Origin: Nereocystis luetkeana | Taxonomy: Eukaryota > Sar > Phaeophyceae > Laminariales > Laminariaceae | Direction of reading: 5' to 3' | NCBI GenBank assembly: GCA_031213475.1 | Contig: JARUPZ010000025.1 | Coordinates: 62,001-126,000 of the forward strand | Length of the DNA stretch: 64,000 nt | Shown: positions 5,041-64,000 of the stretch, piece after piece | Numbering within the stretch: the first letter of the stretch is position 1 | Layout of the letters: each line of letters starts with the position of its first letter | Position numbers and translations under genes: made by a program | Notes under the pieces: generated by a model | The model's database searches: none | Told to the model about the DNA's origin: nothing | The model's input: only the letters and a program-made list of their open reading frames with translations

Positions 5041-5332
5041 TCCGCCGTGAGAGCGCCTTTTCAACATCTTTCTTTCTGAGATGAAGTTCGCAACTGGATC
5101 TATCTGTCTAACAGCATTCCAAGCGTTTACCTCTCGACTATCATCATAGCCAGTCATATCCAACATTATCAGCCTTCGGGCGGAGGACACAATAATTTAC
5201 CTTGAAATAAGTGTGGTCTGTCTCTATTTTACACCGGATTCACAGTAGTGTTTTTCGTTAAAGGCCTGAACCTCCGTTTCTTTACTGACTGGTTGGTATA
5301 TACCAGGTACCAGATATTTCTTGATAGAGGGT

Positions 5333-5437
5333 CTTAAGCCCCTTTAGGATTGCAGTTTCGTTTTGGGGACAAATCACTTAGAATTTGGCTGGTTTGTCCC
5401 TAAACGGGACTGCGGTCCCAACAGCCCTAGAAAGTTA
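5333..5437. mobile_element. Family A foldback MITE, copy A2
   Basis: Diverged copy with the CCGTTTTGGGGACAAAT arm and its inverse. TTAA is recognisable on both sides (TTAAG at left, GTTAA at right). A TACCAGGTA site lies about 25 bp upstream. Confidence 0.8.
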
Positions 5438-5524
5438 ACTGTATAGCTGATGTGTACATACGCATGGTATCGTATGGTACGGCATTTATTTCGATTTGGG
5501 ATTTCGCGGCCTTACTTGAGTATA

Positions 5525-6060
5525 CTGCCATGACGCGTTCTACGATAGAGCAGAGGTAGCACATTTATTTCCGTTAAATTTGTTTCTGAAAGACGGGGCC
5601 CCTTAACCCAAAATCGTCGGAATGCCACTCTTGTTTCGAAAAATGACCTTGTCGCATACTCGGGCCGTGGGATTGTTGATCGGGATGTAATTTGATTTTT
5701 GCTGATGTCATTTTCCGGTTGAGGTATGGATGCGTTCCACGATACATAGAGGTAGCACATTTCCGCTACTACTACTCTGTTTTCTGAATGATGGTGTTCC
5801 TTAACCCAAAATCGTCGGAATGTCAATCTTGTTTCGAACATGACCTTTTTGTATAATATACTTGGGCCATGGGAATATTCATCGGGATGCAATTCGATTT
5901 TTTTTGCTGAAGTCAACCTTCGGGTAAGGTATGGAGCTCCTTACGTGAGGAGCCTCAGAAAATTCAGGGTGAACCTCTTTCGTAGAACGCCTCTGTGTGG
6001 AGCCCCTTGAGTGAGGAGCCTCACAAAAATTAAGGTGGGCCTCTATCGTAGAATGCCTCG
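5525..6060 (-). repeat. Family R repeat, two tandem copies
   Basis: Two units of roughly 200-230 bp sit head to tail: each contains a bend around TTAACCCAAAATCGTCGGAA (5605 and 5800) followed by CTTGTTTCGAA and a TCGGGATG(T/C)AATT block. The second runs into GTGAGGAGCCTCA and TCGTAGAACGCC motifs at 5955-6060. The reverse-complement copy is at 7690-8110. No coding content is apparent. Confidence 0.7.
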
Positions 6061-7690
6061 CAGATGTGGGCTGGCAACAACGACACGTAATCTCAGTGCT
6101 GACGAGAGGTGGGTCTGCTGCCACTGCCACGCACGAAGGGAGAGCCCCAGTCCACTCTTCTCATGCATGATGCCCTCACGACAGGACACGCGACACCCCT
6201 GACCTAAGCACCTGTGTATGCACAGCAGTAGTAGGATGTCGTACGACCTGGTACGATCTTCACAACAACAAAAAAAGTATATATACCTGTGGTACAGGAC
6301 ACCTACCTGTATAATATCTCAAAATAATAAGAAATATAGAAAAGCTACAGAGAGAGAGCGAGACGGCAGGGACTCTCTCATAGGTGCTACCGATAGCAGT
6401 GCAGACCAGCAACACCGCACGACCTTCTGCGCGTTGAAACATGCGTGTAGTAGTAATAAACCAGCCATTTTGATGGACAGCGGGTTTTTAGTAGATTCTT
6501 CGGGGGTGCTTAAGGAGGGGAGTGGTCGTTTTTTGGTGGACGAGATGGAGGGATGTTGGTTGTAGTAGTCTTCATGAGCGTCACTTCAGTTCTGATTTAT
6601 TTGTCGTAGGATACTGCCGCGCTTTTGTTGTGGAGAGTTCTTCACTTTCTGTTATTATAGTCGTTTATTAGAACAACCCTACACATTGTCGGATGACAAG
6701 CATAATAATAATAAGAAACGGGAAGAAAGTCGGTCCCGAGGGATGGATCTTTCCTTTTCGAGCAGGGGTGCGTTCTACACTCAATTCGGAATTCGGTGGA
6801 ACACATACCCCGAAGTTGCTATACTTTCCACCCAGTAAATATCGTGTCTTTTTTTGTTGTGCTGCAGTTTTGCCTGTATCTCCCTCTCTTTCGTGTTGCT
6901 TCGTCCGCGCAGCAGATACCTACCTACCTGCCCTTCCTGAGTACGTGCGTATGCTTTCCGTCTATTAATAGCAGCCTTTCTGAAGTCCTTGCGTCGTTTG
7001 TATTCTGTTTTTTTTTCTCTTCTTTCATTTCAGATTTTTTGTTTTTGTTTTTTTTTATACCCTGGTAGTCTTTTTGTTCTTTTTTTTCCCTGTCTTGCTG
7101 TGTGTTGTTGTGTTCTCGTACCCGGTACGCTGACATCCACTTGCTTGACACTTGAATTTGCGATTTAGTTTTATTCTTTCGGTCTTCCTCTGTCTCACAG
7201 GGTGTGACCACAAAGAAGAAGAATCAGTATCTCTCTAGGATAGGGAATCAGGACGGACATCGGGTTGTACTGATGAAGCTGGGTAGAAAGGACGATTTAA
7301 TGTGAAGACAACAACAACAGTTCGTTTTCTTACTCACCCCTCTCGAAACCCCTCGGTTATCGATAGACGAAAGCGATGACTGGCTGGTAACTTGGGTGTT
7401 ATGTGTTATATCTCAGCCGAGCGAGGTACGAATATCGCATCACATTTGGGGGGGGGGGGGGGGGGACATTCTGCCAGCCACCACGCACCTACGCCGTCCT
7501 TACCGGGCGCCTCATCGCCTTATCGTGTTTCAGACCTAGATAGACCATGGCCGCACACGAGTATGTATGTAGCCTGTGCTCTTCATCGTTGGGCGTAATG
7601 CGTACGCACGTACACGTACGAGTTGCGTGCAGCATTCAATTTATTCTAGTCGTATTCACGCGTGGTGCCCCCTACAATTCCGCAGTTATA
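6061..7690. other. No gene seen; low-complexity T-rich stretch
   Basis: 6980-7110 is T-rich. 7290-7325 ends in a short (CAA)n run resembling the tails at 49680 and 51665. 7447-7465 is a G-run. Confidence 0.45.
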
Positions 7691-8110
7691 CCCTGGGGGG
7701 GACATGGGAGCCTCAGACAAAATAGGGTGAACCTCCATTATCGTAGAACGCCTCCAGGGCGTTCTACGATAGAGATTCACCCTAAATTTGGGAGGAAGGC
7801 GTTCTATGATAGAGGTTGACCCCAGGTTTTGTGAGGCTCCTCACATAAGAGGAGCTCCACACCTCACCCGAAAATTGGCATCAGCAAAAATCAAATCGCG
7901 TCCCGATGGCCCAAGTATGCAGTTAATTGCGACATTTTTCCAACAAGATTGGGATTCCGACAATTTTGGGTTACAACCCCTTTAGTACCGCAGTCCCGTT
8001 TTGGGGACAAATTACTTAGAATTTGAGGCGGGTGCCCCCAAAACGGGGCTGCGGTTCGAAAAGGGGCAAGGAGCCCCGTCATTCAGAAATCTTTTTAGTG
8101 GAAATGTCTT
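7690..8110 (+). repeat. Family R copy interrupted by MITE A3
   Basis: Inverse of the units at 5525-6060: it contains GCGTTCTACGATAGAG, GTGAGGCTCCTCAC and ATTCCGACAATTTTGGGTTA. Family A copy A3 splits it exactly where the uninterrupted copies read TTAA. 7725-7815 also holds a small local inverted duplication of the TTCTACGATAGAG motif. Confidence 0.75.
7975..8068. mobile_element. Family A foldback MITE, copy A3, nested in repeat R
   Basis: Arms CCGCAGTCCCGTTTTGGGG and inverse. The flanks have decayed to ACAA and GCAA, but the uninterrupted R copies at 5604 and 5799 show the ancestral target was TTAA. Confidence 0.85.
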
Positions 8111-8286
8111 ACCTCTAGCATACAACGCGTCGTCCTCGGTGCAATCAAGCTGCGTGAGTGCCCAGCGATACGGGCAGGATGGTGTTGATCACACACCGGA
8201 CGACTCTCTGCATTGCTATCTCAGACTCCGACCACAACATCAGTGTAGTATCACATCATCCTCCAATCACACAGTGGGCGTTGCTC

Positions 8287-8400: not shown

Positions 8401-9767
8401 AAGAAACCGTTCGCTTTTCGTTGTAAAAAAAAAAACCCTCCCTGATCAAGTCCCAAGAGGAATGATACAGCAGTAATAACATTAATAGTAGACAGCAGCA
8501 CATGGGTCTGCCAAACAAAAAAAAACACCTACGAGTACTGTACCTACCTGGTACGTGTATTAAGGGCAAACGAGTCCCAAACAGGGGGGGGGGGGGGGAG
8601 GGGGGGGGATTACCTAAAATCAAGCATTAGTAAAACAAAACTGAAAAAAGAAAGAAAAGTTCTACCTGGTATTTAATTTCTGACGAAAATCCCAACCCGA
8701 TTTTAGTTTGTTTTCAGTTCCGAGATAGTGGCGAGTGTGACCCCGATCTCTCCATGTTTCGTCTGCCCTTGCTGCTGCCGTACCAGGTACGTGTACTATG
8801 CCATGGGATTCATGGTATCCCCGTTTCCCTCTTTATTGCCTATTAATAGGAGGCCCAGACACATTATCATGCTTATTAACGTAAGCAAGGCTTAACAACC
8901 ACCCCTTGAACAATCCGGATGGGCTTTCAGTCAAAAATCATCGTTTGGTTCGGTTCTGAAAACATAAAAAAACGTTATAATATGACAAACGTTGCGAACC
9001 AAAAAAAATATCGTCATAGTTTGGTCCATGGGTTTTACAGTAACGGGTACACGCGAGAATAAAAAAAAACGCAACTACAGGTATGCTGGTAAAACCACTA
9101 ATCAAACAAACTGTCTGGTCCCACCCGCCCGGCACACTAAAACCGAAACAGTTATGTTGTCAAGAAAAAAGCCCACCCTGCCCCCCCCCCACCCGTATTT
9201 TGCCGTGCCACACCCAACACCACCAACTCTCCCACCGCCACAGCCGCTGTCACCTAAAAAAAAAAAAAAATCCGCGCCCACCCCGACGGAACTCCCGAGG
9301 CGTGTCTTTCCAAAGGGGAGGTGCAACCGAAACGAACCAACCGTAAACCAATCGCAGCCGGTGACAGGGCCGAGCCATCAGACACAAAAGAGACACGCAC
9401 GGGAGACTCGACGGTACCGGGATCTCCCTCCTGACGTGCCGTGTGACGCGCAGGACGATCTTAGGGTACTCCAGGACACACATTTTTCCGAGACGATTTT
9501 CTCCGAAATTAGTCGAGCGTACGACAATTTTTATTTTGACTTTTTCTGAAAAAATATGTCGTCGTGGCCTTTCCATAGACAGAAACACCGTTCGGTGTTT
9601 GCGCTTTCTTTGCCCGTTGAAGCCGACAAAATCATGTTGGAATTTTGTCCGAGGAGGTGTGCTGTCTTGTTTGTTACCAATGCAGTACCCCCCCCCTCGC
9701 CTCCCCGCCGACCCCTTCTTCTTCCTGTCATCCTCCCCTCCATACCCCTCCCCTCCCCTCCCGTCTC
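8401..9767. other. No gene seen; homopolymer-rich
   Basis: Contains TACCWGGTA sites at 8545, 8663 and 8781, a G-run at 8585-8608, and C-rich stretches at 9180-9250. The C-rich sequence at 9680-9765 might belong to the minus-strand gene, but no clear splice sites were found. Confidence 0.4.
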
Positions 9768-11040: not shown

Positions 11041-11381
11041 TCCAGCGACATTTGCCACCTTCTCTGATCTCGTTGTACGCCATTTTTGTCTAGGCCACTA
11101 CCGCCCCTGTGTCCGCGGTGCTACCACCGCTCTTCCCCCCCCCGGCCGCTTGTCGAAAAGCGGTGGGCGAAGGGGACAGGGTCTCGGTGATGCTTTGAGC
11201 GGGAGGCGACTTCGGTGCCGAACCAGCAGCGCCTGGGGGGGGGGGGGGGGTGATTAAGGGTGGGGGTGATAAGGGGGGGGGGGGTGATAAAGGGGGGGGG
11301 GGTGAGGACTGGTGCCACGATAGACCTTCCACAGTGGTGTACCGGTGTACCAGGTACCGATTTTCAAGCCCATCTGGTGTA

Positions 11382-11921: not shown

Positions 11922-12140
11922 TTACGGGGGACCATAGTTCATAGGACCAAATGTTGTTATTACGGGGGACCATAGTTAATAGGACCAAATATTGATACTA
12001 GAAATGGTTAAATATATAGGTTTTTATGTATACCACAGGTCCTATTAACTACGGTCCCCCGTAATAGTAGAAATTGTTAAATATATAGCTTTTTATGTAT
12101 ACCACAGGTCCTATTAACTACCTGGTACGGTCCCCCGTAG
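11922..12140. mobile_element. Family B foldback MITE, outer copy B2, split by another B copy
   Basis: The left arm (11922-11957) and right arm (12067-12140) belong to one element. The inner copy is inserted at a TA in its centre. Near its right end, at 12119-12127, it carries a TACCTGGTA that the inner copy lacks. Confidence 0.9.
11960..12064. mobile_element. Family B foldback MITE, inner copy nested in B2
   Basis: Complete element from TTACGGGGGACC to GGTCCCCCGTAA with TA on both sides (11958-11959, 12065-12066). Removing it and one TA restores the normal family B centre of the outer copy. Confidence 0.93.
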
Positions 12141-14950: not shown

Positions 14951-15220
14951 TCTAAGAAAAAACGCCGCGTAGGGCAATATTGCAGGGTAATCCCCAAGTA
15001 AATATATACCTGGTAGATGGTGCACAGATCCTGGCACAAGAGCTCACTGTCTTTCGGATAGGATCTAGATGATCGAGTGCTGCAGTTCGTGATCTACATG
15101 TCCGATGAGTCAACGTATTGTAGCCAGCCGGAGACAAGAGAGCAAGCAAAAATTGTTGCGCGAACCTGCTGCCGCAAAATCCGCCGCGGCAGCGAGAGCC
15201 TACCGACGCCCAGCACTCAC

Positions 15221-16127: not shown

Positions 16128-16239
16128 TTACGGGGGGCCATAGTTAATACCTGGTAGGACCTATGGTATAGATAAAACCCTATATACCTAACCATTTTTA
16201 CTGACAATGTTTGGTCCTATTAACTTTGGTCCCTCGTAA
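16128..16239. mobile_element. Family B foldback MITE, copy B4, with TACCTGGTA inserted
   Basis: Ends TTACGGGGGGCC and GGTCCCTCGTAA, bordered by TA. At 16148-16156 it reads TTAATACCTGGTAGGACC where other copies read TTAATAGGACC, a clean 7-bp gain at a TA. Confidence 0.9.
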
Positions 16240-16599: not shown

Positions 16600-16970
16600 G
16601 GGGGAGGGGGTTACTCATCATCATGCATGGCCGTAGTCGTATGACCATAGACCCTCGCATTCCTAGAGTGCCGGGACGGAGCACGTCGGGTTTTCACCGA
16701 CCAGGCAGACATTGCTCGCACCAAGCGCCGTGAGGTGTCCAGCAAAACGCATGAAGGGCGAGCTGCATCCTTCTAAGAACCGCTTTTGAGGCAGATTTTC
16801 TTGCATATGGATGACAGCGTCAATGAATTGATTTGATTTCTGGTGTGGCCAGCTCCAGAGACGGCAATGGGTTTACTATGGAACTGCCTCGTGGATGCCT
16901 TATCACATACCTGGTACACACTACGCGATACGATCATCCCCCTTGTGCGGAGGGAAGGTTCTCCCCGCAC
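16600..16970 (+). repeat. Family F repeat copy F3, with TACCTGGTA inserted
   Basis: Starts after a G-rich tract and extends to the GCGGAGGGAAGG block. At 16908-16916 it has CATACCTGGTACACACTACG where copy F11 (31112-31440) reads ATATACACACTACG. Confidence 0.85.
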
Positions 16971-21245: not shown

Positions 21246-21966
21246 CGAGTAGCATGTGGGGGGGGGGGGGGGGTAAATCACAAGCCAAAGCCTGAGGTGG
21301 GCAGACGAGGGGACGGAAGGGGAGGGGCAAGGCACAGAGTCAATCAAGAGCACCGAAAAAAAAAAGAAAAAACACACCCACCACGAAAGACATGGAGAAC
21401 TCAGAACACTAACATATACCTGGTACCTGCTATTACTACCTGGAACGCAGAACACAAACGAATCCCTAGATCCTACTTCGCTGCTATTCGTACCTGGTGT
21501 TTACAAAAACAACACACACACACACAAAGCTTGCAAACTTGGGCCTCGGCTACGCAAGAGGTCAATGGACTAACAGAACCAAGAACAGTCACTTTTTTTC
21601 GACAATCCAATTCGGTTTTGTGTTAAAAAAAACAAGCAAACCGACAAACATGAGGACCTGATTGGCGAAACCGGCGAATCATGAGTTGCTCCGTTTCTTA
21701 ACCCAACCCGAGGATAGTAAGTAGGTAAACGTCGCCATTTTGATCACCTTTTCCCGCAGCAATTATTTTCGTCGTGGGTAGGGATTGCCATTTATACACC
21801 AAGGTAGGGAACAGGCTACAAGGAACGCCCAACCCAACCAAACCCCTTCGCAAAACTCCCTAAAGACGAAACAAGACGAACAGGTTTTTTACTCAACAAC
21901 ACAAATGCGCCAACCACAAAAACACACGAAACGCAGAGACATCCCATCCCCGGGGAACACCATCAC

Positions 21967-22162: not shown

Positions 22163-22500
22163 CTGGAGTACGTAGTGATACGATGGCCCATCACGGAACA
22201 AAAAAATCGGGGGTGTTGATTTATTGGATTGTTGATTCTTCGGGGCTGAACACATACCAGGTACGAAGTATCATTATTACTTCTGCTGCGGCGATTTCGT
22301 CTATATCGCCGGTGGAGGCTGAGAGGAGATCGATGGCAATCACGGACAATGGAAAGGGGGCTTGGTTTGATTATGACCTGTTTGGGATAATTGAACCACC
22401 AGGACAATTTGGTATTTACATTTTTTTTTCAGAATATATCGTAGGACCATCAATGGAAGCCCTTTTAGGACTGCTCGTAACACTACAGTCTATCAACATT

Positions 22501-24028: not shown

Positions 24029-24538
24029 AAAATATTCCGTTTCAGTTGTTTTTTTCGGGAGGGGGAACTCTAAAGGGAAAACTTACACGTATACGACGAA
24101 TACACAAATTATTTGGCTAGAATATAAATGTACCCGGTGTGGCAGCTTATATATAGACATACTTGCCCACACCCGTAGACTTTTGGTTGTAAGCTCAAAC
24201 ACATACCAGGTATGTGCCAGGTATGTACCCGGTGTAAGTTGTGTATGGAGCATAGAATGGGCATCCTAAAATCGCTATACTTTTTTGGTGTATACTTAGT
24301 GGCGCTTAGCACAAAAACTAGGCCAGAGAGCGAGCCACTTGCAACGAAACCCCCGAATAACAACGTATTTCGTGATTTTCATGTGTATCACAAGCTATTA
24401 ACAAAGCACGTGAAATAATCAAACGAACCCTGTGCGCAACAAAAAAACGAAGGCAGGCACGGGGGGGGGAAGAAGGGAAGACACTTGTGTGACGATGGCT
24501 TATTGTCCACAAGGCTGAGGCTGCTGAGGGCATAAAAT

Positions 24539-25930: not shown

Positions 25931-25940
25931 CTGATTGCTA

Positions 25941-26045
25941 TTACGGGGAACCATAGTTAATAGGACCTATGGTATACGTAAAAACCTATATATTTAACCA
26001 TTTTTACGAACAATATTTGGTCCTATTAACTATGGTTCCCCGTAA
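25941..26045. mobile_element. Family B foldback MITE, copy B6
   Basis: Well-preserved: TTACGGGGAACCATAGTTAA to TTAACTATGGTTCCCCGTAA with TA on both sides. The paired changes in both arms are compensatory (GGGGAACC and GGTTCCCC). This is the empty-site reference for B4. Confidence 0.93.
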
Positions 26046-26066
26046 TAACACATTTAGCTGATTGTG

Positions 26067-27535: not shown

Positions 27536-28012
27536 GGGTACTCGATATCATTCATGGCCGTAGTCGTAAAACCAGCGACCCTTGCATCCCGATGACGCCG
27601 GGACGGAGCACGTCGAGTTTTCACCGACCAGGCAGACATTGCTTGCACCAAAGCGCGACGGCGCAAGGTGTCGGCGAGTCGCATGCAGAGTGGGTTGTAT
27701 TCTACTAACGACCGCTTCTGAGGTAGACTTGCATACGGATGACAGCGTCGAGGGGTTGATGTATTTTCTGGTGTGGCCACTTCCAGAGACAGCAATGGGG
27801 GTACTATGTAACTGCCTTACCATAAAACACTACCAGGTACCTGGCACGTGATACGATTGTTCCCGTCGCGCGGAGTCGAGTGTCTCCACCCCGCAAACAT
27901 GATTTAACTCGATCGCCAGCTGTGGCCGACCGCCAGGAACAAAAACAAAAAAAACGGCACCCTGGTTGTCTACTGTAGCTCGTTTTACAGTGTCGTTGCC
28001 AACCGACAAAGC
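27536..28012 (+). repeat. Family F repeat copy F8, full length, with double micro-insertion
   Basis: Runs from GGGTACTCGATATC to GTCGTTGCCAACCGACAAAG. At 27831-27846 it has TACCAGGTACCTGGCA where F11 and F12 read only TA, giving a 14-bp gain (two units, the second slightly decayed). Confidence 0.9.
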
Positions 28013-30873: not shown

Positions 30874-31125
30874 CTAAGTCGGTACATCAAAAGGAGGCGT
30901 GCCGTAAAAAGGGGTCGAGCGGGGGGAGGGGGGGGGGGGGTACACTTGGTGTCCGTTGGAATATCACACAGTAGCTTCCGTCTAAATAGGTATATCAAAA
31001 GGAGGCATATCGCAAACGGGGGGAGGGGCGGGGTACATTTGGTGGAGTCCCCTGGGATATAACACGGCGGTAGCTTCCGTTAAATCGGTAAATCACAGGG
31101 AGGCGTGTCGTAAAGGGGGGGGGGG
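30867..31125 (+). repeat. Tandem array G, part 1: duplicated splice-acceptor region
   Basis: About three units of roughly 80-110 bp, each with GGTAGCTTCCGTCTAAAT, CGGTACATCAAAAGGAGGCG and TGTCGTAAA, separated by G-runs. On the minus strand each unit is a C-run, a TTTTGATGTACCGA stretch and a TTTAG, the same arrangement that ends in the exon 2 acceptor. Confidence 0.85.
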
Positions 31126-31130
31126 GGGGG

Positions 31131-33720: not shown

Positions 33721-33954
33721 TTTTAAATCATCACTTTTACTTTCCAGCCTAACTCGTACCAGGTAGGAGGTTTCACCCTCGGCGATCTTCTGGACAAGCC
33801 GTGGTCACAGGTGTCGTCCCTTCTCCCCCCCGGTACGCGCCTTTACTTTTTGTCGCGCATAGGTTTCAGCGTTCCCACTGCTCGTCGATTTTCATCGAAT
33901 GTACCCAACTCACGCTTTCGCGCTTTCCGCTGATCCATTTTTTCGTGCAAGAAA

Positions 33955-38689: not shown

Positions 38690-38815
38690 TATTATGTATT
38701 ACCATATATTACTATATAGTGCAAGGTTTCGTATGTATCTCTACCAGGTAGGTATTTCTACTATGTACTATAGTACTATGTACTGTCATGTATTGCTATG
38801 TATTACTATGTACTA
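38690..38815 (+). repeat. ATGTAYTACT short tandem repeat
   Basis: Degenerate ten-base units such as CTATGTATTA and CTATGTACTA, flanking B8 on both sides (also 38921-38960). Contains TACCAGGTA at 38742. Confidence 0.75.
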
Positions 38816-38920
38816 TTACGGGGGACCATAGTTAATAGGACCTATGGTATACATAAAAACCTATATATTCTACCACTTTTACTAACAATATTTGGTCCTA
38901 TTAACTATGGTCCCCCGTAA
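38816..38920. mobile_element. Family B foldback MITE, copy B8
   Basis: Near-consensus, TTACGGGGGACCATAGTTAA to TTAACTATGGTCCCCCGTAA, with TA on both sides. Inserted in the ATGTAYTACT repeat. Confidence 0.94.
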
Positions 38921-38959
38921 TATTAATACTCTCTACTACTATATACTACTATGTAGTAC

Positions 38960-40260: not shown

Positions 40261-40860
40261 AAAGTGTCAGTGCATACTGTAAATTACATACCATGGTACC
40301 AGGTACCAAGTGTTGTATCTTCGCCTCTAAGAAAAATCCCAGAAAATTCGTATCGAATACAGCGAACCCCAACCATAGTGCCGAACAAGCAGCGAGGCAA
40401 CCTTCCTGTACCTCTCCACTTTTCGCCACGTTCTGTGTCCGACCGTCTCGGGATGCTATCGGAAACATCCGACGTAATGAGGACTTCACGTAGACATGCC
40501 GCACATGTTGTCGAAACTGGACCAAGTCGTACACGATTTCATACTGCTCACTTCGTGCTCTTGGCCGAGAAAATGAAGACGAATTTCCCCGGTAGAAGAA
40601 ATTCCACGGCCTGGAAGAAGTAGTACTGCGCTTTTTGGACCTGCCACGGGTTGTAAGAGCGTAATAATATTTTAGGTCTACCGGTTGGAAGAACGTCTTC
40701 ATATTTCAGTTTTAGCTCTGTTTCAATCCCAGGAAGAGAGCTCTAGACTACAGTAGATTTCTATATTTCTATATGTCCAAACTGATACGACCGGGCACGA
40801 AGTAGTTTGCGTACTCAGTGCTGTACACCTCCTTAAGTTTTGTTTCGTACCTTTTTCCAA
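40261..40860. other. No gene seen
   Basis: One TACCAGGTA at 40297, adjoining CCATGG. ORFs on both strands are unsupported. Confidence 0.35.
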
Positions 40861-45012: not shown

Positions 45013-46740
45013 CTCACGTGGGGGGTGTTTTTTTGAGGATTTCATGCCTTCAGGACATGCTCGCCACACCAAGTAGTACATATATTTTTTATAGTCCCTA
45101 CTAATAGAGCAGTACCACGCGAACATCGGGGGGGGGGGGGGTATACGATATCTATATATACCCCCGCATAAAACATGACGAAGTCATGAAAATTAAATAT
45201 TTCTGAGTCATGTCCATGTACCACGGACATTTTCCGTTATATCGCGATGGTATGTGATACATGCAGGGTATGTGATAAATCATGTGATAGACCACATGTA
45301 TCACGTGATATATCACTTGCTATCTGCCCTATATCCTGCGATTTCGTGTGACGCTCTCGAATATACATCCGTACAACAGCGCCGCACCACATCCGTACTT
45401 ACTTGCTCGGTACTCAACGATCTGTGCCCGCTCCGTACACAATACAGTATGTACGGATGACACATAAAATTCCCTTCTCCACGAGGTTACATTTGATGCA
45501 AATGTGTTGTATGTGGTGTAATGCAGACGGCAGTACATTGCGATGACGCACCACGATATTGTGGACTGCCAGTACGCGGAGTACCAGGTATACAATGTTT
45601 TCTTTCCAGTGTTTCCTTCCTGGCGTCCATAAAGCGACCCCTCCGATCCAAGGCCAAAAGGATATTATTGTGCTTTTCATGACTGCAACCGCCCGGGACA
45701 AGGAATAGCCCCGAACCGACCAAAAAAGAGAGACAAAAAAAAAAAACCGGGAAAACTACAATGAATAAAAAACTAAACGACAGAAACAAAACAGACGGAG
45801 CAAGCTGACGGTGCAAGGGCCAATAACACCGAGAATTCGATACCGCTGGCAAGGACGAGCAACACTCCGAAGCCGCTAAAAAACGAGCTTCGTCTTGCAA
45901 CAAAGACAAGCACCTCCCACTACGCAGGCATTTAATAGAGAAAAACACACGTGCGTGCCAAATCTGCTCCGATGTGAGTTTTGTTGGAAAGAAATTACAA
46001 ACTCGAGGAAAGGACGTGAGAGCGGAATTAATCGGGAACGATGGTGGCGTTATGTTGTTGGTGATAGGGGTTGGGCCCAAGAATTCCATGCTGCACAAAC
46101 ATGACTGACGGGACTGACACAGCGACACATCCAGCATGAAGACCCATCAGAGCTCGTGGCGGAAACATTACACCATCAGAGATTAGAGCGGGAAAAAATA
46201 CGAAATCCACGGCCGCTACTGCACCAACTCCCAGATGACAACACCACCAACAGTGGTGCGCTGCAAGCTAATAATACAACAGGTAGTGCAGGAAAACGAC
46301 GTTTTCGGTACTGGTTAGAGTGCAGGAAAATGACGTTTTCGGCATTCTCGTTTGGCAGACTTGCAGGGTTTCTCCGTGATGGAGTTCCCCGCCAAGGAAG
46401 GCGGGGTATCTACAATAGGTGCTCCAGTACCTCGCCATCCGAAAGCTTAACGACGAATATTAAAAGTCAAGACAGCAAATCGTCACATTCTACCAAATGT
46501 AGGGTAGCTGTATCACCTACCCCATGTTATCTAGGCCGATATACAAACCTTTATTGCCTGTTTTAGGTCGATATGACAACTTGCATCACCTTATGTAAGC
46601 CGATATATCACGTCCCTTCATAGCGGTCATACATATAATAAATAAATATCGTATCACCTTTTGGTCACATCTTGCTGAAAGCCCCTATATATAGCGATGT
46701 AATACGACATGATATACAGAACACATTCCGGGGAAACAAA
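45013..46740. other. No gene seen
   Basis: 45128-45141 is a G-run. 45240-45320 has a local palindromic cluster of ATGTGATA and TATCACAT motifs. A TACCAGGTA is at 45582. Confidence 0.35.
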
Positions 46741-46744: not shown

Positions 46745-47632
46745 ACTACCTGGTATCACATTCCGGCGAAAAAAACATGATTAAGACCGGCGCCAATGGA
46801 AACTCCGAGTCAAAAAGTTTTCCTTCAACAAGACTGCTTTCAAAGAACAGCCGAAAATATCCCCCTACCGCCGTTGTGGGGGGAAAAAAAAGAAGGGGAA
46901 AATGTTTGTTTTTCCCTCTTTTTTTTTCTAACGGCTGCAGGCGGCGCAGTTTGTTTTTTCTCGTTGCAAGTTGTCAACACGGTGATAAAAATCAGCTCGG
47001 GCGACGATAGACGCTCGATCTCGACAAAGACTCATCCCACGGCCAACCCGCTTGGTGACGGGCAAGGCCAACGAGTGCAGATGACGGCCTCGAAGATATC
47101 ACGTGGATCCATGGTCTAGGAGGCGAGAGTTTGCCGGCGACGTCCTACCGTATCCTCCCATACCTGAAAAAACAAACAAACTATTTTTTAATGTTCGAGA
47201 CGGAACGAGAAATTTTGTCATCTGATTCGTGCACACCAGCGGCCAATTATTTTTCATCATACGCCTGGCCAACGCCCGCCGCATGTCACCGGCTATTGGG
47301 TGAACATGGTGACCTTAAGGGGCGTCGGAGCCCCTAACGAGCGTTCTCCGTTCAGAAATAAAATTCATGACGCAGTCGTTGGTTTTGTCGATCGATGTCT
47401 GCCGAGGACTCGGAATCTCGCCGCTATGGACCAAACATCCGCCCGAGTGTTTCTGAAAGCGATCTTGGTCCAACGTAAGCCCCAGATTTGCTTTTTTCGG
47501 GCTTTTCCAGAAGTTTGGAACTTTCCGTTTTAAGAAACGTGTTTAAAGCAGGCTGAACCTGTTTTTTTTTACGTGTATCGTTGGAATTCAAACTTTTTAT
47601 GGAAACTTTGCGTTTCCATTGGCATATAGACC
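46745..47632 (+). repeat. 0.85-kb direct duplication, unit 1
   Basis: Starts ACTACCTGGTATCACATTCC and shares with unit 2 AACGGCTGCAGGCGGCGCA, ACGCTCGATCTCGACA, GGATCCATGGTCTAGG and GATCGATGTCTG. Both units have scattered differences and homopolymer length changes. ORFs differ between units, so coding is not supported. Confidence 0.9.
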
Positions 47633-48469: not shown

Positions 48470-48479
48470 TACCTGGTAC

Positions 48480-50110
48480 CACATTCCGGCAAAAAAAAAC
48501 ATGATAAATACTACCAGGTACAATACCAGTCTGACAAAAATATATACCAGGTACCCTGGTAAGCAACGTTTGGACGTTTTTGCGGCGTGTATTGTGTTGT
48601 TTCGTGCTTTTTGAGACCCTGTTTATGGCATCGTACTCGCGGGTATCACGGGAATGGCATGTAGTTATGGATATAGAATATCGTATATCATACCTGGTAT
48701 TAATAGCGTGTATACATACAGTGGCAGTAGGGTATCCCTAGAGTGATACCAGACTCTAGCCCCTCGTACTCGTACCCGTATCGCATTTATACTACACCTG
48801 TAGTTATCCCGTGATCTACACGCAAGATCCAAGATTCCGTTTTTATGTCGACGGCACTGGATTTTATAGACTATTTACTGCCGGTACACGTACGTACGTA
48901 CCAGTACCACAGCAGCAGTAGCAGTGGTAGCAGTATATACAGCAGCAGCAGCAGTACCAGGAGTATCCTATCTTATTATCTGTGGCATCCACTCAGCATT
49001 ATTCACACGTAGTTTCGAGCCATTTTCGCTCGTCCTGGCGATGAGGTCCACCGCTCGATCGGCTACTTCCTCATCGCGCTCACCGACCCCTAGTTTGCAT
49101 ACTCTGCCGAAGGGAGCCTCGGCCGTGCTCGCGCCGTGCTATTCTGGCGCCGGGGCGTTCAGTCTACACCCAGAGTCTCGTTGTCTCGGCGGATTCCAGT
49201 ACTGCTGTAGTTTAATGGCAGTGGAGTGATGATACTGCAGGAGCCGTGGGTTTGTTAGGATGTAGACTACGTATACACGCACAAGAAGAATGGAGTACGT
49301 ATCCCTTCGGACGTCGGTTGTTCAGTCCTCGGGGTTTTATAGCCCGTTGCTGCTCGCTGTTCACCCTCCCCACTACAATCCCAGCAGTGCTACGTACACC
49401 TACCTGCACCAGTACATCCATGATCTGTGTACATCGTATGATATGATACGATACTGACGATGTTTGTCGTTTATGTTCGTAGATATTATACGAAGATACT
49501 GCTGTAGTATCCGTAGTATTTTAATACCTTGGTAGTGTTTTTCGCGTTGGCTTACTCGGGTACTGTTAATACATACGTACCAGGTACGTACCAGGTATGT
49601 ATGGAGCCTGTCCTGCGACCACGGACTGCATTGTATGGTGGCGATGAGTTGAAGTGAGAACAACAACACATACGTGAATGTAATGTATACAAGCGGTGTG
49701 GTGCTGCGTGTGCTGTTGCCATGTGTGTATCTATACTGCTTTCATTGTTGCCGTTGCGACTGTTGTCCGTCGTTGTATACCTGCCATCCGAGGTGAGATG
49801 TTTTTCGTACAGCAGTACGTACTTACCGCCACTCTTTTTTTTTATCTCGAATGAACGTACTTTACTGCTGTGCACCCCTTGGCAGTACGGTTGCTGTTGT
49901 GCGGCTTCGCTTCACCTATGACGAAACCTCTCTTCGCCACTACAGTCATGCGCGAAGCCGTAGGCGGGCATCAGTCCGCCGCGGCGTAGCCCCACTTATA
50001 TATCCTTACGTACCACTCCAGCAAGAAGCAGAAGAAAGTTGCAGCAATACAAATCGGAGAGACCTCGTATATCATCATAAGTGTAGCCTACCTGGTACAT
50101 CAGTACATTA
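48480..50110. other. No gene seen; dense GTAC and TACCWGGTA sequence
   Basis: TACCWGGTA at 48512, 48545, 48691, 49578, 49589 and 50089. (GCA)n-like stretch at 48905-48955. 49610-49695 is a short dispersed repeat ending in (CAA)n (see 51610). Confidence 0.4.
49609..49680 (+). repeat. Family Q SINE-like tail, copy 1
   Basis: GAGCCTGTCCTGCGACCACG, ACTGCATTGTATGG, then GTGAGAACAACAACAC. Shares its 3' part with 51615-51688 but not its upstream sequence. Confidence 0.55.
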
Positions 50111-50204: not shown

Positions 50205-51614
50205 TCTTCTGGCCATTCATTGACGATGTCCTCTTCATTTTAGATAGATTAGTGCTCCTACTACTGCTGTCTACCAGGCATAACTGCTGTACGTGCTACC
50301 ACTGCCACTGCTGCCGCCGCTGTTAGGGTCAGTATTAATAGTCCTGCAACGTAAGCACGTTATCCAACTACTCGTACGGTCCAGCAGTACCACAATTCCA
50401 GTTATAACCGAAATTATTACAGCCGAAACGTGCGTGCATTGCAAACAAGCAATTGCACGCTTCTGCAAACAAGCAGTTGCACGCTTCTTCTGATATCGCA
50501 GGTTTTTCATTCTGCTTTGGGTGTGGCGATTGTGCGAGCGACAAAATGGGTATGAGAGACGAGACCGAGCTCAAGCCGTCTCCCAATTTGCCGTATACTC
50601 CTGCTGTACCAGTATGAGGTCGGTACTTGAACCGCTGGGTCGTGTCGTGGTTGGTGATGCGCCGGGTAGTGGCGCGTTCACCACTAAGTAAAGCGCGCGA
50701 AGGCGGAGGCGGTGGCGTCCGTGTAGGGGGTATAGGGAGAAAACAGTGTATGGCCTCTGATTGGCTCAGAACAGGAAAAAAAACAGTTGAAAGCTACGTC
50801 GTATTTACTGCTGCAGGCAAAATAGGTGTACATGGTCCGCTTGAAGATGAAAATAGAAAATAGGTACCAGGTGTGTACGAGTATGTATTTAGAAAAATGC
50901 CTGGTATATTTAAAAAAAAACCATCAGAGATCCAAGATTTCGTCGGAACTCATCTTTGCAAGCTGTGTGTCATCACACTTCGATCGCGCGTACTACTGGT
51001 TTTAAACTGCCTTATGAAGGAAACACAGCAGTCCCTGTGTATGTACGATGTGAGGCTGGCCAATCGCAGGGCTCCTGGCGTGTGGTTTTTACTTGGTTTA
51101 GTGTTACCAGTTTTTTTCCCAAATGGGTCTAGGTACGTACGTACGTATCATACCTGGTATTATCCCTGTTTTTTTATAACACCCTACCAGGGTACTGCCT
51201 ACCTGGTATTGAAAACGTTATATTTGGAACTCTCAGTGAACCATGAACCACCCCCGATTTAAATACCAGGTACGTCATTTTTTCAAAAACGAATCCCTGT
51301 CGCCAGCATTTTTCATTTTTTTCAAAGATCGTCACAACGTCACGACAACACTCAAGTATACGTACCTCTTTGTGTCTCTGTTATTAATAGTATGGCCCGT
51401 TTTGCCTTTTTTGCGTTTTGCTACTTGCTTCTGTTTGTTTGTTTGTTTGTTTGTTTTTTTTTTGCTTCGCTTCATCTTCTTTTTTAGGTTTTTGTCTGCA
51501 ATGAATAGTCTCCTTTTTGCTTCCCTGGTGTCCGCAGTGGTGGAGTGCGTATGCTTGTTTTTTGTTTTTGCCTCTGTTTTACTACCGATGTATTTCTTCC
51601 ACTCCAGAGTTATT
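50205..51614. other. No gene seen
   Basis: TACCWGGTA at 51151, 51200 and 51264. 50440-50490 has a tandem GCAAACAAGCA(A/G)TTGCACGC pair. ORFs are not domain-bearing. Confidence 0.4.
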
Positions 51615-51839: not shown

Positions 51840-52600
51840 CAGCCAGTGCTGGCAGCATCTGCAGTACGTACAGAACCCCAAAATACTGCCAGTACTCTGT
51901 GCTGGCAGTATCCGCTCAAAGTACTGCGAGTACCGGCAGTATACCCAGTGTCCGCAATGCCCACAACAGCAGTATAGTAATAGTATCGAACCCCCAAACA
52001 CTTCAAGTTGTACAACAACAGCAGTATGCCCGCAGTGCAGAACCCTTAAACAATGCGAGTACTCCCAGTATGTTATGAGCAATACTGGACCAGTGACTTA
52101 TGGCATGTGTAGGTACTGACGGTATTTTCCAGTGTATCCCTCGCCAAGTAGTTTACCCCAACTCCCACCTTTGGCTGGATCATGCGTTTAGTTTCTGCCG
52201 AGAAACTGCAGTACTGCTGTATCTGGTGGATACTCCTGACACTATCGAAACGGTGTACATCACGTGCTGATTTTATACGGGGCACTTCATACTCCGAGTA
52301 TGCTACTCTGTAGGAGTATTTCAGAGTGCTTTGCACTAAATACCTGGTACCTGGGACTACTGTAGTGAGTACTCGTAGTACTAACGGCCGTAATACTGCC
52401 AGTACTGGTAGCAGCATCCGCATTACAAAGCCCTGAACTGTTTAGAGTGTGGGCAGTATCCTTTACCCGCAGTATCGTACCCCCAAGAAAGTATAGGCAG
52501 TGTCCAAAGCAGCCGAACAGCACAGAACAGCAGCAGTACCCCGAATACCGGGAGTATCGAACACACAGCAGCGGTACGTACCTGAGCAGTATCGACCCCT
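51840..52600. repeat. Family P dispersed repeat, AGTACTGCCAGTA-rich
   Basis: Several degraded copies with GGCAGTATCCGC, AGTACTGCGAGTACCGGCAG and CAGTATCGAACCCCC-type motifs. Also at 54940-55060 and 58895-59310. Confidence 0.6.
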
Positions 52601-55405
52601 AAACTACGCAGTACAACTGGAAGCATCTGATGTGCATCTTTGTACGGGTATGGCATGATCTACGACAAAAATGAACTATTAGTACGTACTTGGTGCGGGT
52701 GTACTGCTGTCTGCTGCATATCTGCACTACCAGTACTACCTGCACCACCAGCAAGATAGAAAGCCACAGGGCCACGCATATCCGGCAGTCATACCTCAGT
52801 GTCCACGAGCACCGCCTGAGCAGTCTTGTTGCTGAGAGCGAGCCTCTTGGGCGGAGCAGTCGATGCCGCCTTCCCGGGCTCCACCTTCCTCGTCGCCATC
52901 TTCCCCTGCACTTGTCCGAGACCCGGGGCTTGTCCGTGCGCAGCCTCTAGCAGGAAGCAGAAGAAGCAGCAGCAGCACTAGATCTAATGGACGGCCAAGT
53001 CAACCTGTTCTGCCTCGCAAAAGATGCTCGACGGTTTGGTCTGACCCGAAGGCCTTGCTTGATACCGGCTGCTGTCAAATACAACTTGTATTTCACAGCT
53101 TGGAAAGATTGTCGCGCGACAACGCCGAAACAACACCAGCTCTGGTGTGTTCGCCTCGAGATAAAAGAGAGCGAGAGTAGGGCGCACGGCGGATACTAAG
53201 CGCCGAGGCGTCACAGCACGGTCGGGCTTGCGAGTGCTGCCGAAGTCCGCGTGGCAACCTTCCAGATGGACATGTATTTGGCTCGGCAAAGGGAGAGAGA
53301 AGGGTCTTATGTGGATTTTGAAATGGCTCTTTCGCTGCTTCCTCTCGTGCTCTTGCCACGAGAGCACACCAACACCGGCACGAGCGCCGCCTCAGTCGAC
53401 CAAATAAGCAGGCAGGGATCCGGCAGCGTGGACCCGAAGTATCGTCCGGAAATCTGTTCAGGATTTTATCCTTCAATCCTTTCTCCCCTCGCTTCCCCGG
53501 TTGTAATTCGATTTCCCGCCTGGCAAGAGAAGGAGCAAGCAGGGAGTTCATATGCGCCTACGAAGGGAAGTTTCAGGGGGATATTTATGATTGTTTTAGG
53601 TTCAATCCCGGGTGAAAACGATGCAAAAATAACACAAAATCCTGTTCGGCGTACCTTGAGTGGAGAGGAGCAGGTGTGGAAGAAGGAGGGAACTAGAGGG
53701 GGAAACCCGATATGGATACGGATTGAACCCTCCCGGACCAGCCTCTACGGTGGCCTGATCCTACAGGCCTTATTCCTGGAGCTTAATTTCGCTGCACTTC
53801 GTGACACCGAAAAAACTTTTTTTTTTGTTGCTCTTGATTGTTTTCACGCCTACCATCATCCGTGTTCCTCGTGGATTGGTTCTCTCCTCTTAACTCTCAC
53901 ACTGCTGCGATCCAGACTCTCGGCAGCAACAGCCCAGCCCACGCGGCTTCCCTGGGGGGGGTGGTACCGTGAGAGAGAGAAAGAGCAAGAGAGAGAACGG
54001 AACACATAGAGCTTGCACCTTCGACGTTCATCTTCAGACGCGTGCTGGAGGGCGAACCGCGCGGCTTGTTCGCTCTAAACTTCGGGGTTAATTGCGCCTG
54101 ACACAAGGCAGCAGCAGCGACACCAGTACCAGCACCTTCGGGGAGGGGTGGAGGGGGGGGGGGGGGGAACCTGGGAGCCTCAGCCGTACCCTTCAATGGG
54201 AAATCAGGTGCGTTGCATAGTGCCCGGTCCTTGTCTATTGGTGTGAGATGACCCGGCCCTCGTAGGGCTCGAGCTTGTTCGCGAGCGACCGAGTGGCCGA
54301 GAGCAAGTATGTAGCGTTTGGCGGAGGCTGGATTTCTGCTACTACTATTAAGAGATAGCCTGTCTCGGGTGTTGCACGTGCGGGTGCCGCTGCAGACAGC
54401 CGCAACAGCACGTGTGTGCTCGCACAGCCGCAGCAGCGGTTTTGCTGTCTATGACACAGCGACGCATCAACAGTTTGCACGAGTATACATTCTCCTGTTG
54501 TACCTGTGCGCCCAGGTACACAGCAGCAGCAGTTCGTACCTGTATAAACTGGTACCAGGGATACACGCATGTGTGGCATAGAGATGAGCAATGAAATTGG
54601 AGTAGGAACTCAACCGCCACTGCTGCTGTCTTGGCCAGAGGGGGCAACGTCCTTCTCAGGAGGAAAAAAACGTGCTGGTCCAAGCGGCAGCAGTGTACCA
54701 GTACCCGGTACTATTAATAGCGGTGTATCGTACCTGGCACGACGCACGTGCCGGAAAAGCCATTCGGGCAGCTTGACAATTGGTACTGCTGCTATAGTCA
54801 CCCGTACGTAATGATCATATCTTGCTTCAATCATACTTTGCTTTCGCTTTTGATTTGCCAGGTAAAGGACCCCTGTGTGCTTGCGCTTTTTACGAGTACA
54901 TACCTGGTACTCATTAGCCAGAATACACGCACTGATGCAGACAGCACTCAGGCATGCTCCCAGTATACTTCGTGCACCAAGCATACTCGGGAGTTTCGAG
55001 AGTATTTTCGTACTGCGAGTGCTTGGAGTATTGCAGCACCGGTAAGATTTTGCGAGTCCCGATAGTATGAGCAGTCTGGCGCCCAACACACCAAGAGTAC
55101 AGCAGTACTGGCGGCTGGAAGTACAGCAGTACGTACTGTTTGTAATGGTATGCACTGCTGTACGTGTATTCGTAACTTTCACATAATTTGTACCTGGGCA
55201 ATTCTGAAAACCTACTTCGTAAAACGCGCGATCGAATTATCACACTACTCGTAGGCTTTCAGAAATGAAGAGTTTTGAGTAATTTTTCAGTCTCACAAGT
55301 TCACAGCTTCGTTTTTTTCTTGTTTTTCGCTTTTCTTCTTTTATTGTGAAAAAAGCACAACCACACAGCCGTCGACATAATAAGCCAAGTATTTCCTACC
55401 AGGTA
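52601..55405. other. No convincing gene; ORF of 252 codons at 53251-54009 not supported
   Basis: Both strands of 52860-53550 have long ORFs, which indicates GC-driven openness rather than coding, and no motif was recognised. 52945-52980 and 54520-54545 have GCA microsatellite stretches. 54150-54165 is a G-run. P-like sequence lies at 54940-55060. Confidence 0.35.
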
Positions 55406-58200: not shown

Positions 58201-58294
58201 TATCGAATTAACCTGTACCTGGTACCTGGTATGCCGAAACTATTGATTTCTTGATGGGATATTAATAGTAACACGCCGGTGTCATATCTGTATA

Positions 58295-59760: not shown

Positions 59761-59837
59761 ACAAGACCACCTCATGACATCGACAGTTACGTGGTCTCAT
59801 CCTTTCCTACTCCAAAAAATATACCAGGTATCGTGTT

Positions 59838-61041: not shown

Positions 61042-61256
61042 TAATTCGGGGGACCGCAGTAAATAGGACCTACGGTATACACAAAAACTATATACCTGGT
61101 ACCTGGTATTTACCTATTCTATTGACAATATTTGGTTCTATTTACTATGTTTTTTTTTTTTTTTTTTTTTTATCCTCCGGCGGATTGGTAAAAATAAAGC
61201 TTAAGCTCACCACACTTCCACGTTCGTGAAATTTACTATGGCCCCCTGTAATAGCG
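61042..61256. mobile_element. Family B foldback MITE, copy B10, with two insertions
   Basis: Left AATTCGGGGGACC, right GGCCCCCTGTAA. At 61093-61108 it has a tandem TACCTGGTACCTGGTA relative to other copies. At 61150-61230 a poly(A)-tailed sequence interrupts the right arm with duplicated ATTTACTATG. Confidence 0.9.
61150..61230 (-). mobile_element. Poly(A)-tailed retro-insertion with 10-bp target duplication
   Basis: Read on the minus strand: 59 bp (TTCACGAACG at its start, CCGCCGGAGGAT at its end) followed by a 22-base A tail. ATTTACTATG is present on both sides (61140-61149, 61231-61240). This is the hallmark of target-primed reverse transcription by LINE machinery, here moving a 5'-truncated transcript or SINE. 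A related block (ACCAACCGGCCGGAGGATAA) is at 26177. Confidence 0.85.
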
Positions 61257-61750: not shown

Positions 61751-61930
61751 GCTACTGTTGCTGCACGTACGGCACTCTTTGTTGTTTAGACGAGTTTAGC
61801 ATGCAGCTGCAGTACAAAGCCCCTATTTTATACCAGTACGTATATGCGATATAAGACCAGTGGAACACAGCTGTAGTACGAAGTAGCAGGCACGTGAGAA
61901 AACGAGCACGGAATAAGCTACCACCAGGTA

Positions 61931-62174: not shown

Positions 62175-62425
62175 TAGTGGGAGAAAGGTGATACAATTTG
62201 AAATTTCGGGAGTAATACGAAACTCTCGTGCACCTGGACGCGGTTATTTCGAAAAATCGTGCGGGGTTTGGGTTGGCCAATCGTCTCCGCATCCTACACC
62301 TGGGGATGTTTTCCTACTGCTGTAGGGGAGATTTCGTCTCGCTGTTGTTTTGGAGTTCGTTTTGAGTTTTTCACCACGTGGGTCATGGCACTCTGTCCGA
62401 GCATGCAAAACCCTTTCGAGTACTA

Positions 62426-62530
62426 TTACGGGGGACCATAGTTAATAGGACCTGTGGTATACATAAAAACCTATATATTTAACAATTTCTACTAACAATA
62501 TTTGGTCCTATTAACTATGGTCCCCCGTAA
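62426..62530. mobile_element. Family B foldback MITE, copy B12
   Basis: Near-consensus with TA on both sides. Confidence 0.94.
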
Positions 62531-63189
62531 TAGTAATAATACGGGTACCACCACGGTCTTACACACACTTGCGGACGGGTTGCTACTGCTGCTTACCGTT
62601 CCGCCCGGAAATGTAGGGGGGGTTCGGATATTTATACGATTTACGCTCATGAATATCAAAGCACTCTTCATCGACGGACAAAAAACACACGTCCTGCCAC
62701 CTGCAAGTACGAGGCTCGTGCACACTGCTTCACGCGAGCGCCAGGGCTCGAGCCCACGGAGACGAAGCTGCTTCCGCGGGTGCTGTAGTCTGGCGCTGAT
62801 GTTGTCGTGGTCTGGCTGTACGCACGCGCTCGAAACCTGTGCCTCTGGCCTCTGGGCTGATGATTGTACGTACAGTGGAGGGACTCAGCAGCCTGCGCCG
62901 GGCCTGGCTCTCTACCCTTTCACGGAGACAGAGGACAGGCTGCGAGAAATATGACTACGCACGTGTTACAGGGGATACACACCGCCACGTCAGGATGGTG
63001 TTGGGCCGCCCTCCCCTGCGTCGGTTGTCTGAGCGTCGGAGGTGCACCAGCGGCCTCTCTCTCTGTCTCGCACTCGCTCGCCACCTCTCGGCACGCCTCG
63101 ACAAGCCGCGCGATCGTGGCGGCCGCCGCGGCCAAGCACCAACATTTGTCCCAGCACCATTCCTACCAAACTCGTGTTCTACCGGTCCT
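62531..63189. other. No gene seen
   Basis: GC-rich 62700-63160 has open frames on both strands but no recognisable domain. GAGCGCCAGGGCTCGAGCCC resembles motifs of family M. Confidence 0.35.
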
Positions 63190-63316
63190 ATAACGGGGGG
63201 CCATAGTATATGGGACCAAATATTATTATTAATATTAACAGTAAAAATAGCGAAATATATACCTGGCGAGTTTTTTTGTGTGTGCCGTAGGTCCTATTTG
63301 ATATGGTCCCCCGTAA
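63190..63316. mobile_element. Family B foldback MITE, copy B13
   Basis: Ends TAACGGGGGGCCATAG and ATATGGTCCCCCGTAA with TA borders. Contains the extended TTATTAATATTAACAG centre shared with B3 and a TACCTGGCG that may be a decayed micro-insertion. Confidence 0.88.
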
Positions 63317-63674
63317 TAGTTGGCCGATTTTTCCCGTATATAGAGCACTCTATTGGTCGAAGGTTTTCCGATGCAGAAAAAAACCCGATTAAAATGTCTC
63401 ACGTACTGGTGCTGTGCCAGGTAGTCAACGAATATATAATGACGGTTAATGTCGATTACTTATCGTGATTTTTATCAGCAACCGTAACGAAGGCTCTGGT
63501 TTTGCGGGGTTTTTCGAGCGTCAGCGATTTTGTAATTTTCACGGCCCCTAAGAATACTCATCGAGATGGCTGGAACTGTTTTTTTCCTGATTACATTGTT
63601 TTTTTCCTTCGCGGCGCAACCTCTCCAACGCAAAACCCCAAAAAACAATTCCGGGCCGTGCTGCGGAACATAAC

Positions 63675-64000
63675 TAACTCACAGAAGTTCTTGGTAGGTA
63701 CACGAATTCTGTACCCGTACCCGTACCCGTGCCCGTACCCGGGTATTTACATGGGCGCACCCGTACCCCGGGTATTGTGCCACGGGCGTACATAACGTAC
63801 AGAAGTTCCGGGTACGCCAGGGTACGCGTGTGAATATCGTACAGAACCCATAAAAGTTCCGGGTACCGGTATGGAAGCATTGCAGAAGTCATAGAAGTTC
63901 CAGGCACTACCAGGTACTACACGGTATGAGAGTCTTACCAGAGCTCACAGAAGTTCTGGGTTGGTATACGAATGTTGTACCCGTACCCGCACCCAGGTAT
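63675..64000 (+). repeat. Degenerate tandem repeat, GAAGTTCCGGGTAC units
   Basis: ACAGAAGTTC(C/T)(G/T)GG recurs about every 60-100 bp with GTACCCGTACCC stretches between. TACCAGGTA at 63908. Continues to the window edge. Confidence 0.75.

Follow-up and report, generated by a model that had tools for sequence, protein, structure and literature searches.

A 7-bp unit inserted at TA throughout the genome of the brown alga Nereocystis luetkeana, probably the excision footprint of a TA-targeting transposon

Why should a single 9-bp palindrome, TACCWGGTA (W = A or T), recur dozens of times in one short stretch of a brown-algal genome? The stretch, hereafter the window, comprises 64,000 nucleotides of Nereocystis luetkeana (GenBank assembly GCA_031213475.1, contig JARUPZ010000025.1, positions 62,001 to 126,000; G000:C25:62001-126000 in our coordinates). 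An earlier note on this DNA had counted about 37 sites by eye against about 0.5 expected and had read them as transposon excision scars. Exact matching yields 37 sites, 18 of them A-centred (TACCAGGTA) and 19 T-centred (TACCTGGTA) when read on the + strand. Across 100 shuffles of the window the mean was 0.48 and the maximum 4, so that none of the 100 attained 37, and TACCWGGTA is the top over-represented 9-mer of the window when repeats of period 1-3 are excluded. The clustering had been slightly misjudged, as 16 rather than 17 sites lie at 48.0-61.0 kb, or 18 with those at 61,093 and 61,100. The sites are listed here in window coordinates, with no strand assigned.

5301..5309, TACCAGGTA unit, exact match, then a degenerate second unit CCAGATA
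8545..8553, TACCTGGTA unit, exact match
8663..8671, TACCTGGTA unit, exact match
8781..8789, TACCAGGTA unit, exact match
11348..11356, TACCAGGTA unit, one unit where the paralogue at 58216 has two
12119..12127, TACCTGGTA unit, 7-bp gain against empty paralogues
15007..15015, TACCTGGTA unit, exact match
16148..16156, TACCTGGTA unit, 7-bp gain against several empty paralogues
16908..16916, TACCTGGTA unit, 7-bp gain against the paralogue at 31117-31442, remaining paralogues less clean in alignment
21417..21425, TACCTGGTA unit, then a degenerate second unit CCTGCTA
22255..22263, TACCAGGTA unit, exact match
24204..24212, TACCAGGTA unit, exact match
27831..27839, TACCAGGTA unit, then a degenerate second unit CCTGGCA
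33757..33765, TACCAGGTA unit, 7-bp gain against an empty paralogue on another contig (G000:C1:63178-63497)
38742..38750, TACCAGGTA unit, exact match
40297..40305, TACCAGGTA unit, exact match
45582..45590, TACCAGGTA unit, exact match
46747..46755, TACCTGGTA unit, exact match
48470..48478, TACCTGGTA unit, exact match
48512..48520, TACCAGGTA unit, exact match
48545..48553, TACCAGGTA unit, exact match
48691..48699, TACCTGGTA unit, exact match, adjoins a TATTAATA word
49578..49586, TACCAGGTA unit, exact match
49589..49597, TACCAGGTA unit, exact match, starts 11 bp after the start of the 49578 unit
50089..50097, TACCTGGTA unit, exact match
51151..51159, TACCTGGTA unit, exact match
51200..51208, TACCTGGTA unit, exact match
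51264..51272, TACCAGGTA unit, exact match
52341..52349, TACCTGGTA unit, then a degenerate second unit CCTGGGA
54901..54909, TACCTGGTA unit, exact match
55397..55405, TACCAGGTA unit, exact match
58216..58231, tandem double TACCTGGTACCTGGTA, sites 58216 and 58223, one unit in the paralogue at 11348
59822..59830, TACCAGGTA unit, exact match
61093..61108, tandem double TACCTGGTACCTGGTA, sites 61093 and 61100, read as a 14-bp gain against empty paralogues
63908..63916, TACCAGGTA unit, exact match

The excess is real, extreme and genome-wide. The whole assembly (465,085,209 bases) holds 182,395 copies, or one in about every 2.5 kb; the control, the pattern read backwards, occurs 1,744 times. The earlier note had named a near-expected genome-wide frequency, or paralogue differences other than multiples of 7 bp, as grounds for giving up its reading; neither occurred. 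Further analyses were carried out on a 264-kb sample made up of the window and 200 kb of another contig (C1:1-200000), to which the counts below refer unless stated otherwise. This sample contains 96 exact sites where 1.89 are expected. Flanks of TACCWGGTA sites are mostly unrelated to one another.

Comparison of filled and empty repeat copies shows how the sites arise: in about ten independent repeat pairs, TA is converted to TACCWGGTA by insertion of 7 bp. The sample was aligned to itself, and inserts with matching flanks in paralogous copies were tallied. CCWGGTA was the commonest listed insert of at least five bases (12 bins, 11 sites); the next 7-bp inserts filled 9 and 8 bins, and AAGC, of 4 bp, filled 18. 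A second tally, with a slightly different flank rule, accepted only pairs whose empty copy reads TA and whose filled copy reads TA-core-TA. It gave 12 sites for CCWGG, 12 and 10 for two one-base cores, and 4 for the next longer cores. Three sites (C1:61225, C1:92262 and C1:114563) represent one shared position in one repeat family with a single empty copy, where a deletion in that copy could also explain the difference. The ten independent gains are at 12119, 16148, 16908 and 33757 in the window and at 48194, 61225, 88615, 93898, 124861 and 184079 on C1. At C1:184079 and C1:48194 the best alignments are 87-89% identical, with closely matching flanks; the pairs at C1:61225, C1:93898 and C1:124861 are weaker, with alignments at 67-72%.

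Among the window sites, 12119 and 16148 each show a clean gain of 7 bp at TA relative to several paralogues in the window. Both are hosted, together with the 14-bp gain at 61093, by a TA-flanked family of about 110 bp that resembles a miniature inverted-repeat transposable element (MITE). Two more window loci differ in tandem units, namely 61093/61100, where the 14-bp gain at TA is read by eye and the aligner sets gaps of 12-13 next to a 1-bp difference, and 11348, with one unit against two at 58216/58223. For the remaining window sites no informative paralogue was found within the window. Other copies of the MITE-like family, with ends near TTACGGGGGACCATAG, lie at 25939-26047, 38814-38922, 62421-62535 and elsewhere.

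The target is a TA that becomes duplicated, as is seen both in these pairs and in the dinucleotide counts: in the arrangement XY-CCWGG-XY, TA occurs 96 times and each of the 15 other dinucleotides 1-5 times. A target profile was derived from 76 de-duplicated sites without tandem neighbours, with 14,040 TAs as background. Because the method symmetrises it, the symmetry of this profile is imposed, but its extent is not. Outward from the TA the preference reads Y-R-W-n-n-T-W (position 1, Y 77% with A at 5%; position 2, R 63%; position 3, W 72%; position 6, T 48%; position 7, W 78%), and positions 10-12 carry almost no signal. A flanking preference of this kind points to an integrase of the transposase type, and a two-sided preference around TA is what would be expected of a Tc1/mariner-pogo element. 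The Tc1 target consensus is CAYATATRTG. A palindromic target centred on TA, AAGTACTT, is reported for Passer, a pogo transposon (PMC9976928; here and below, statements on cited papers refer to the available parts of their text). The centre of the unit is nearly always A or T, with 96 such sites against 5 centred on C or G (1.9 expected), an excess that would be predicted if a self-complementary overhang with one central mismatch were involved.

Units also occur in tandem. In C1:1-276,408 plus the window there are 10 adjacent doubles, 7 with equal and 3 with mixed centres (p 0.34 against equality). Genome-wide, mixed-centre doubles number 6,378 (4,522 TACCAGGTACCTGGTA, A-T, and 1,856 TACCTGGTACCAGGTA, T-A), and the reversed controls of both gave 0. 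Exact tandem copying of one unit cannot produce two different centres, so reuse of the TA is common. The sample holds 5 doubles, where about 0.6-1.2 would be expected if the TAs of scars were targeted no differently from other TAs.

We consider it probable, at roughly two chances in three, that a TA-targeting cut-and-paste DNA transposon of the Tc1/mariner-pogo kind left these units behind as footprints of repair. Such an element would duplicate its target TA on insertion, and on excision its transposase would cut 5 bases inside each 5' end, so that both flanks would retain a 5-nt 3' overhang, CCAGG on both or CCTGG on both. Annealed to each other, these overhangs would form four G-C pairs with a lone A.A or T.T mismatch in the middle; repair would resolve that mismatch to A or T and give TACCAGGTA or TACCTGGTA. 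Each departure would add a scar while the element itself stayed rare, and the newly made TAs would be reusable and yield tandem units. Annealed 5-nt overhangs would explain why C, C, G and G are invariant, why W is free and why the step is 7 bp. Of the excision reading proposed in the earlier note, the insertion of 7-bp units at TA (ten independent pairs), the loci differing by 7 or 14 bp (12119, 16148, 16908, 61093/61100, and 11348 against 58216/58223), the A or T centre and the tandem reuse of TA have held up, and the target-site preference, absent from that note, is added here; the 5-nt stagger and the donor are what we infer from these marks, and the sequence searched yielded no CCWGG-ended element in multiple copies.

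Several observations weigh against this explanation, among them the results of the search for a donor. The 37 half-sites listed for the window share no common inward sequence, and the 33 half-site flanks listed reveal no multi-copy element with CCWGG ends. Nor does such an element appear among the TA-flanked inverted pairs of the sample, 60 of which were listed out of 197. When CCWGG ends were paired in the sample and in 20 short loci, at most 10/14 inward positions matched, and the best pairs were scars (12 of 18 pairs listed). Genome searches for DDE_3 (PF13358) and for Transposase_1 (PF01359, mariner) gave 0 of 30 and 0 of 3 candidates, respectively, the control of the latter being silent too. 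The search for DDE_1 returned 28 matches, of which 12 loci were cut out and 4 of these extended to about 8.5 kb. One is a candidate donor, a single-copy pogo-like element of 6,130 bp (G000:C2:6447062-6453191) with a 331-aa open frame carrying HTH_Tnp_Tc5 and DDE_1; five further DDE_1 loci share 40-56% identity with this frame. The element has TACCAGG at both ends and a terminal identity of 23/28, for which the naive chance is 2e-6 for each of 33 end pairs. Scars alone could partly mimic these inverted repeats; when scar-like letters are discounted the ends match at 8/12, and the four extended loci, with their 33 end pairs, would be expected to give about 0.12 such cases. At the other three, CCWGG pairs reach at most 11/21 inward matches.

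The left 188 bp of the C2 candidate are single-copy. Its terminal pattern, with two mismatches allowed, has 62 matches in the genome (control 0), which comprise its own 2 ends, 23 occurrences of an identical word in an array on contig C29, 20 that start with TACCAGGTACCTGG like tandem scars, and 17 others. From none of six match places that were fetched does an alignment with a C2 end extend beyond 45 bp. A full TACCWGGTA at a 21-bp step is present in at least three of these places (on C37, C15 and C4), and the place on C29 is not scar-like. Weak interior matches link C10 with the right end of C2 (38 bp at 79%) and C10 with C4 (84 bp at 62%). The genome pattern search and the six fetched places weaken the case from the terminal repeats, and we regard the C2 element as no more than a suggestive lead for the donor. 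The identical words on C29, each of 25 bp, lie within G000:C29:785088-1507571 at steps of about 33 kb, a spacing that suggests a large tandem array.

Other difficulties concern the footprint itself. Its core of 5 bp lies outside the range of 0-4 bp in the papers cited here, which is perhaps not a defining one: footprints are given as 2-4 bp for Tc1/mariner (PMC7913693), 1-4 nt for Ppmar2 and Osmar5 (PMC9632168) and 0-4 bp for Passer (PMC9976928). Related words, which may be minor products, are also in excess, though far less so, namely TACCATGGTA (6 against 0.25 expected), possibly a minor product or an unrelated palindrome, TACCGGTA with a CCGG core (12 against 3.7) and TACCAGTA/TACTGGTA (26 against 7.3). 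Products that retain both overhangs are very rare, with 27 TACCWGGCCWGGTA genome-wide and 3 in the control. These comprise 10 A-T, 1 T-A and 16 equal-centre cases (7 A-T to 1 T-A on large contigs), a bias that cannot tell CCAGG from CCTGG ends, as A-T doubles outnumber T-A doubles too. The latter imbalance, 2.4:1, is not predicted by the simplest form of the model, in which repair is random. It could arise if the central TA were favoured when target position 3 reads T outward, a preference that predicts about 6,400 equal-centre doubles (TACCAGGTACCAGGTA) genome-wide.

Decay of the units gives some indication of their age. There are 107 one-mismatch variants outside the centre, 55 in 8 transition kinds and 52 in 16 transversion kinds. 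Their mean target score (5.87) is about midway between that of intact sites (6.83) and that of any TA (4.85), so that about half of them are probably mutated units. With an estimate of 58 decayed per 96 intact units as input, a crude decay model with steady formation gives about 0.2 substitutions per site elapsed and about 2 units formed per intact unit. By this model the units are more likely an accumulated record than the product of one burst, and few donors active at once would suffice.

Which other processes could yield the same pattern? A transposase or a domesticated pogo-like host protein might insert, or leave, a minimal CCWGG+TA unit at TA sites that have never held a long element. 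The lack of a multi-copy element with matching ends in the sequence searched would fit this, as would the uniformity of the unit relative to the alternative words counted and the fact that three of the four extended DDE_1 loci show no convincing CCWGG ends, so that some DDE_1 loci could be host genes. We know of no enzyme that inserts such a unit; annealed overhangs explain the central W and the G-C symmetry simply, and rare donors are enough by the decay model, which makes this idea doubtful. In its stricter form the unit would be the product of micro-insertion and not a scar: a pogo-like transposase domesticated by the host, or else an extremely short unit that inserts itself, would place the 5-bp core and a TA at TAs germ-line-wide, which is rather unlikely. 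A third proposal, which we also hold to be unlikely, is that several elements (pogo-like, Minos-like and piggyBac-like) left scars and that CCWGG is merely the commonest class. As TA-core-TA, CGAG (61 against 6 expected), TTAA (45 against 3.1), CAG (84 against 28.5) and CAGCAG (45 against 0.45) are indeed in excess; CGAG and TTAA each have 4 paralogue gaps and CAG has 3, and a pogo-like locus, L044, ends in TA-CAGTACCGGCC. However, these excesses either are smaller than that of CCWGG or cannot be separated from CAG repeats. At positions 6-7 the classes CWG, CGAG and TTAA show none of the target signal, although some of it is seen in TCA and GCAG (the CCWGG set in this comparison included tandem sites). 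This reading extends the excision explanation and does not replace it.

Less specific processes fare worse. Tandem duplication or slippage, or the spread of a repeat that carries the word, would be in keeping with the 7 of 10 doubles that have the same centre and with an insert common to several copies of one repeat. It is nevertheless very unlikely, as flanks are mostly unrelated, 76 sites are left after de-duplication and removal of tandem sites, and mixed-centre doubles abound; simple tandem spread was rejected on the grounds of the flanks and the mixed doubles. CCWGG is a methylase site in bacteria, and so extreme and uniform an excess of a palindrome might be imagined to reflect a functional motif, a binding or methylation site, raised by selection or biased mutation. 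Yet paralogues differ by whole 7-bp gains, for which reason this candidate was rejected, and one-mismatch variants are transition-rich per kind with a weaker target signature, as in neutral decay; we therefore judge it highly improbable. Ectocarpus carries phaeovirus insertions (PMC13236599), so scars of endogenous phaeovirus integration or excision also had to be considered. Those insertions lie at CC dinucleotides and are attributed to a tyrosine recombinase (PMC13236599), whereas in Nereocystis the target is TA, duplicated and strongly preferred (96 against 1-5), and a phaeoviral origin was rejected as scarcely conceivable.

The excision explanation finds its closest parallel in Sleeping Beauty and Frog Prince, which share the TA target, the duplicated TA and a W-centred C(A/T)GTA footprint derived from 3-nt 3' overhangs (PMC3878927, PMC7827188). 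Their core, however, is 3 nt long and that in Nereocystis 5 nt; TACWGTA is here a separate word (the 84 against 28.5 given above), and the available text of those papers holds nothing on copy numbers like the present ones. Passer has in common the palindromic TA-centred target, and DDE_1 transposases are present in the Nereocystis genome; its footprints measure 0-4 bp (PMC9976928), and no multi-copy CCAGG-ended pogo element emerged from our searches. Ppmar2 and Osmar5 likewise cut and paste at TA and leave footprints of terminal bases, but these are of 1-4 nt, and diverse in Ppmar2 (PMC9632168), in contrast to the one dominant 5-nt footprint seen here. Among brown algae, Ectocarpus has 17 Mariner-Tc1 families with almost 12,000 copies, mostly non-autonomous; the main text of that paper, in its available parts, makes no mention of excision, palindromes or MITEs (PMC12477816). 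Literature searches with either spelling of the unit returned topics of gene expression, infection or extracts (one on the seaweed Codium) and, judged by title, nothing on transposons or algal genomes, and among the papers listed by broader searches, judged by titles and the beginnings of abstracts, there was none on such scars.

If the units are scars, one TA-targeting lineage has left about 182,000 intact marks, and perhaps twice that number were formed. Cut-and-paste excision would then be a main route by which small insertions, frameshifts and new palindromes arise in a multicellular lineage, and the genome would hold a datable record of transposon activity that stays legible long after the elements have vanished. 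A 5-nt stagger with near-uniform overhang repair would, if true, widen what is known of DDE transposases.

The window also contains a copia-like polyprotein (252-1634), whose best organism-named relatives, with 120 of 123 relatives listed, are from Ectocarpus sp. CCAP 1310/34, with one from Sphacelaria rigidula. A copia element 70% identical to it lies on a 6.9-kb contig filed under a Rickettsiales metagenome-assembled genome, which on this similarity is probably algal contamination. That contig carries two TACCWGGTA (P about 0.001 at the chance rate of the window), one of them, by eye, seemingly in gag-like coding sequence, a weak sign that the process may also extend beyond Nereocystis luetkeana. 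In the viral_contigs collection no copia relatives were found, and a search with one spelling of the double gave 5 stretches, each with just the two overlapping sites of that double, and no scar-rich stretch.

A few other words and loci deserve mention. TA-CGAG-TA has as its core CGAG, the Minos-type 4-nt footprint, and the six-base CAGCAG core mentioned above occurs as TACAGCAGTA/TACTGCTGTA. At the pogo-like locus L044 (G000:C33 near 1924202) the TA-flanked inverted ends are about 2.2 kb apart. The TTAA core corresponds to TATTAATA, often present as CTATTAATAG (e.g. at window positions 48698, 51382 and 54712); its flanks carry a strong signal of their own at positions 1-3, and with its paralogue gaps it is possibly a second type of scar.

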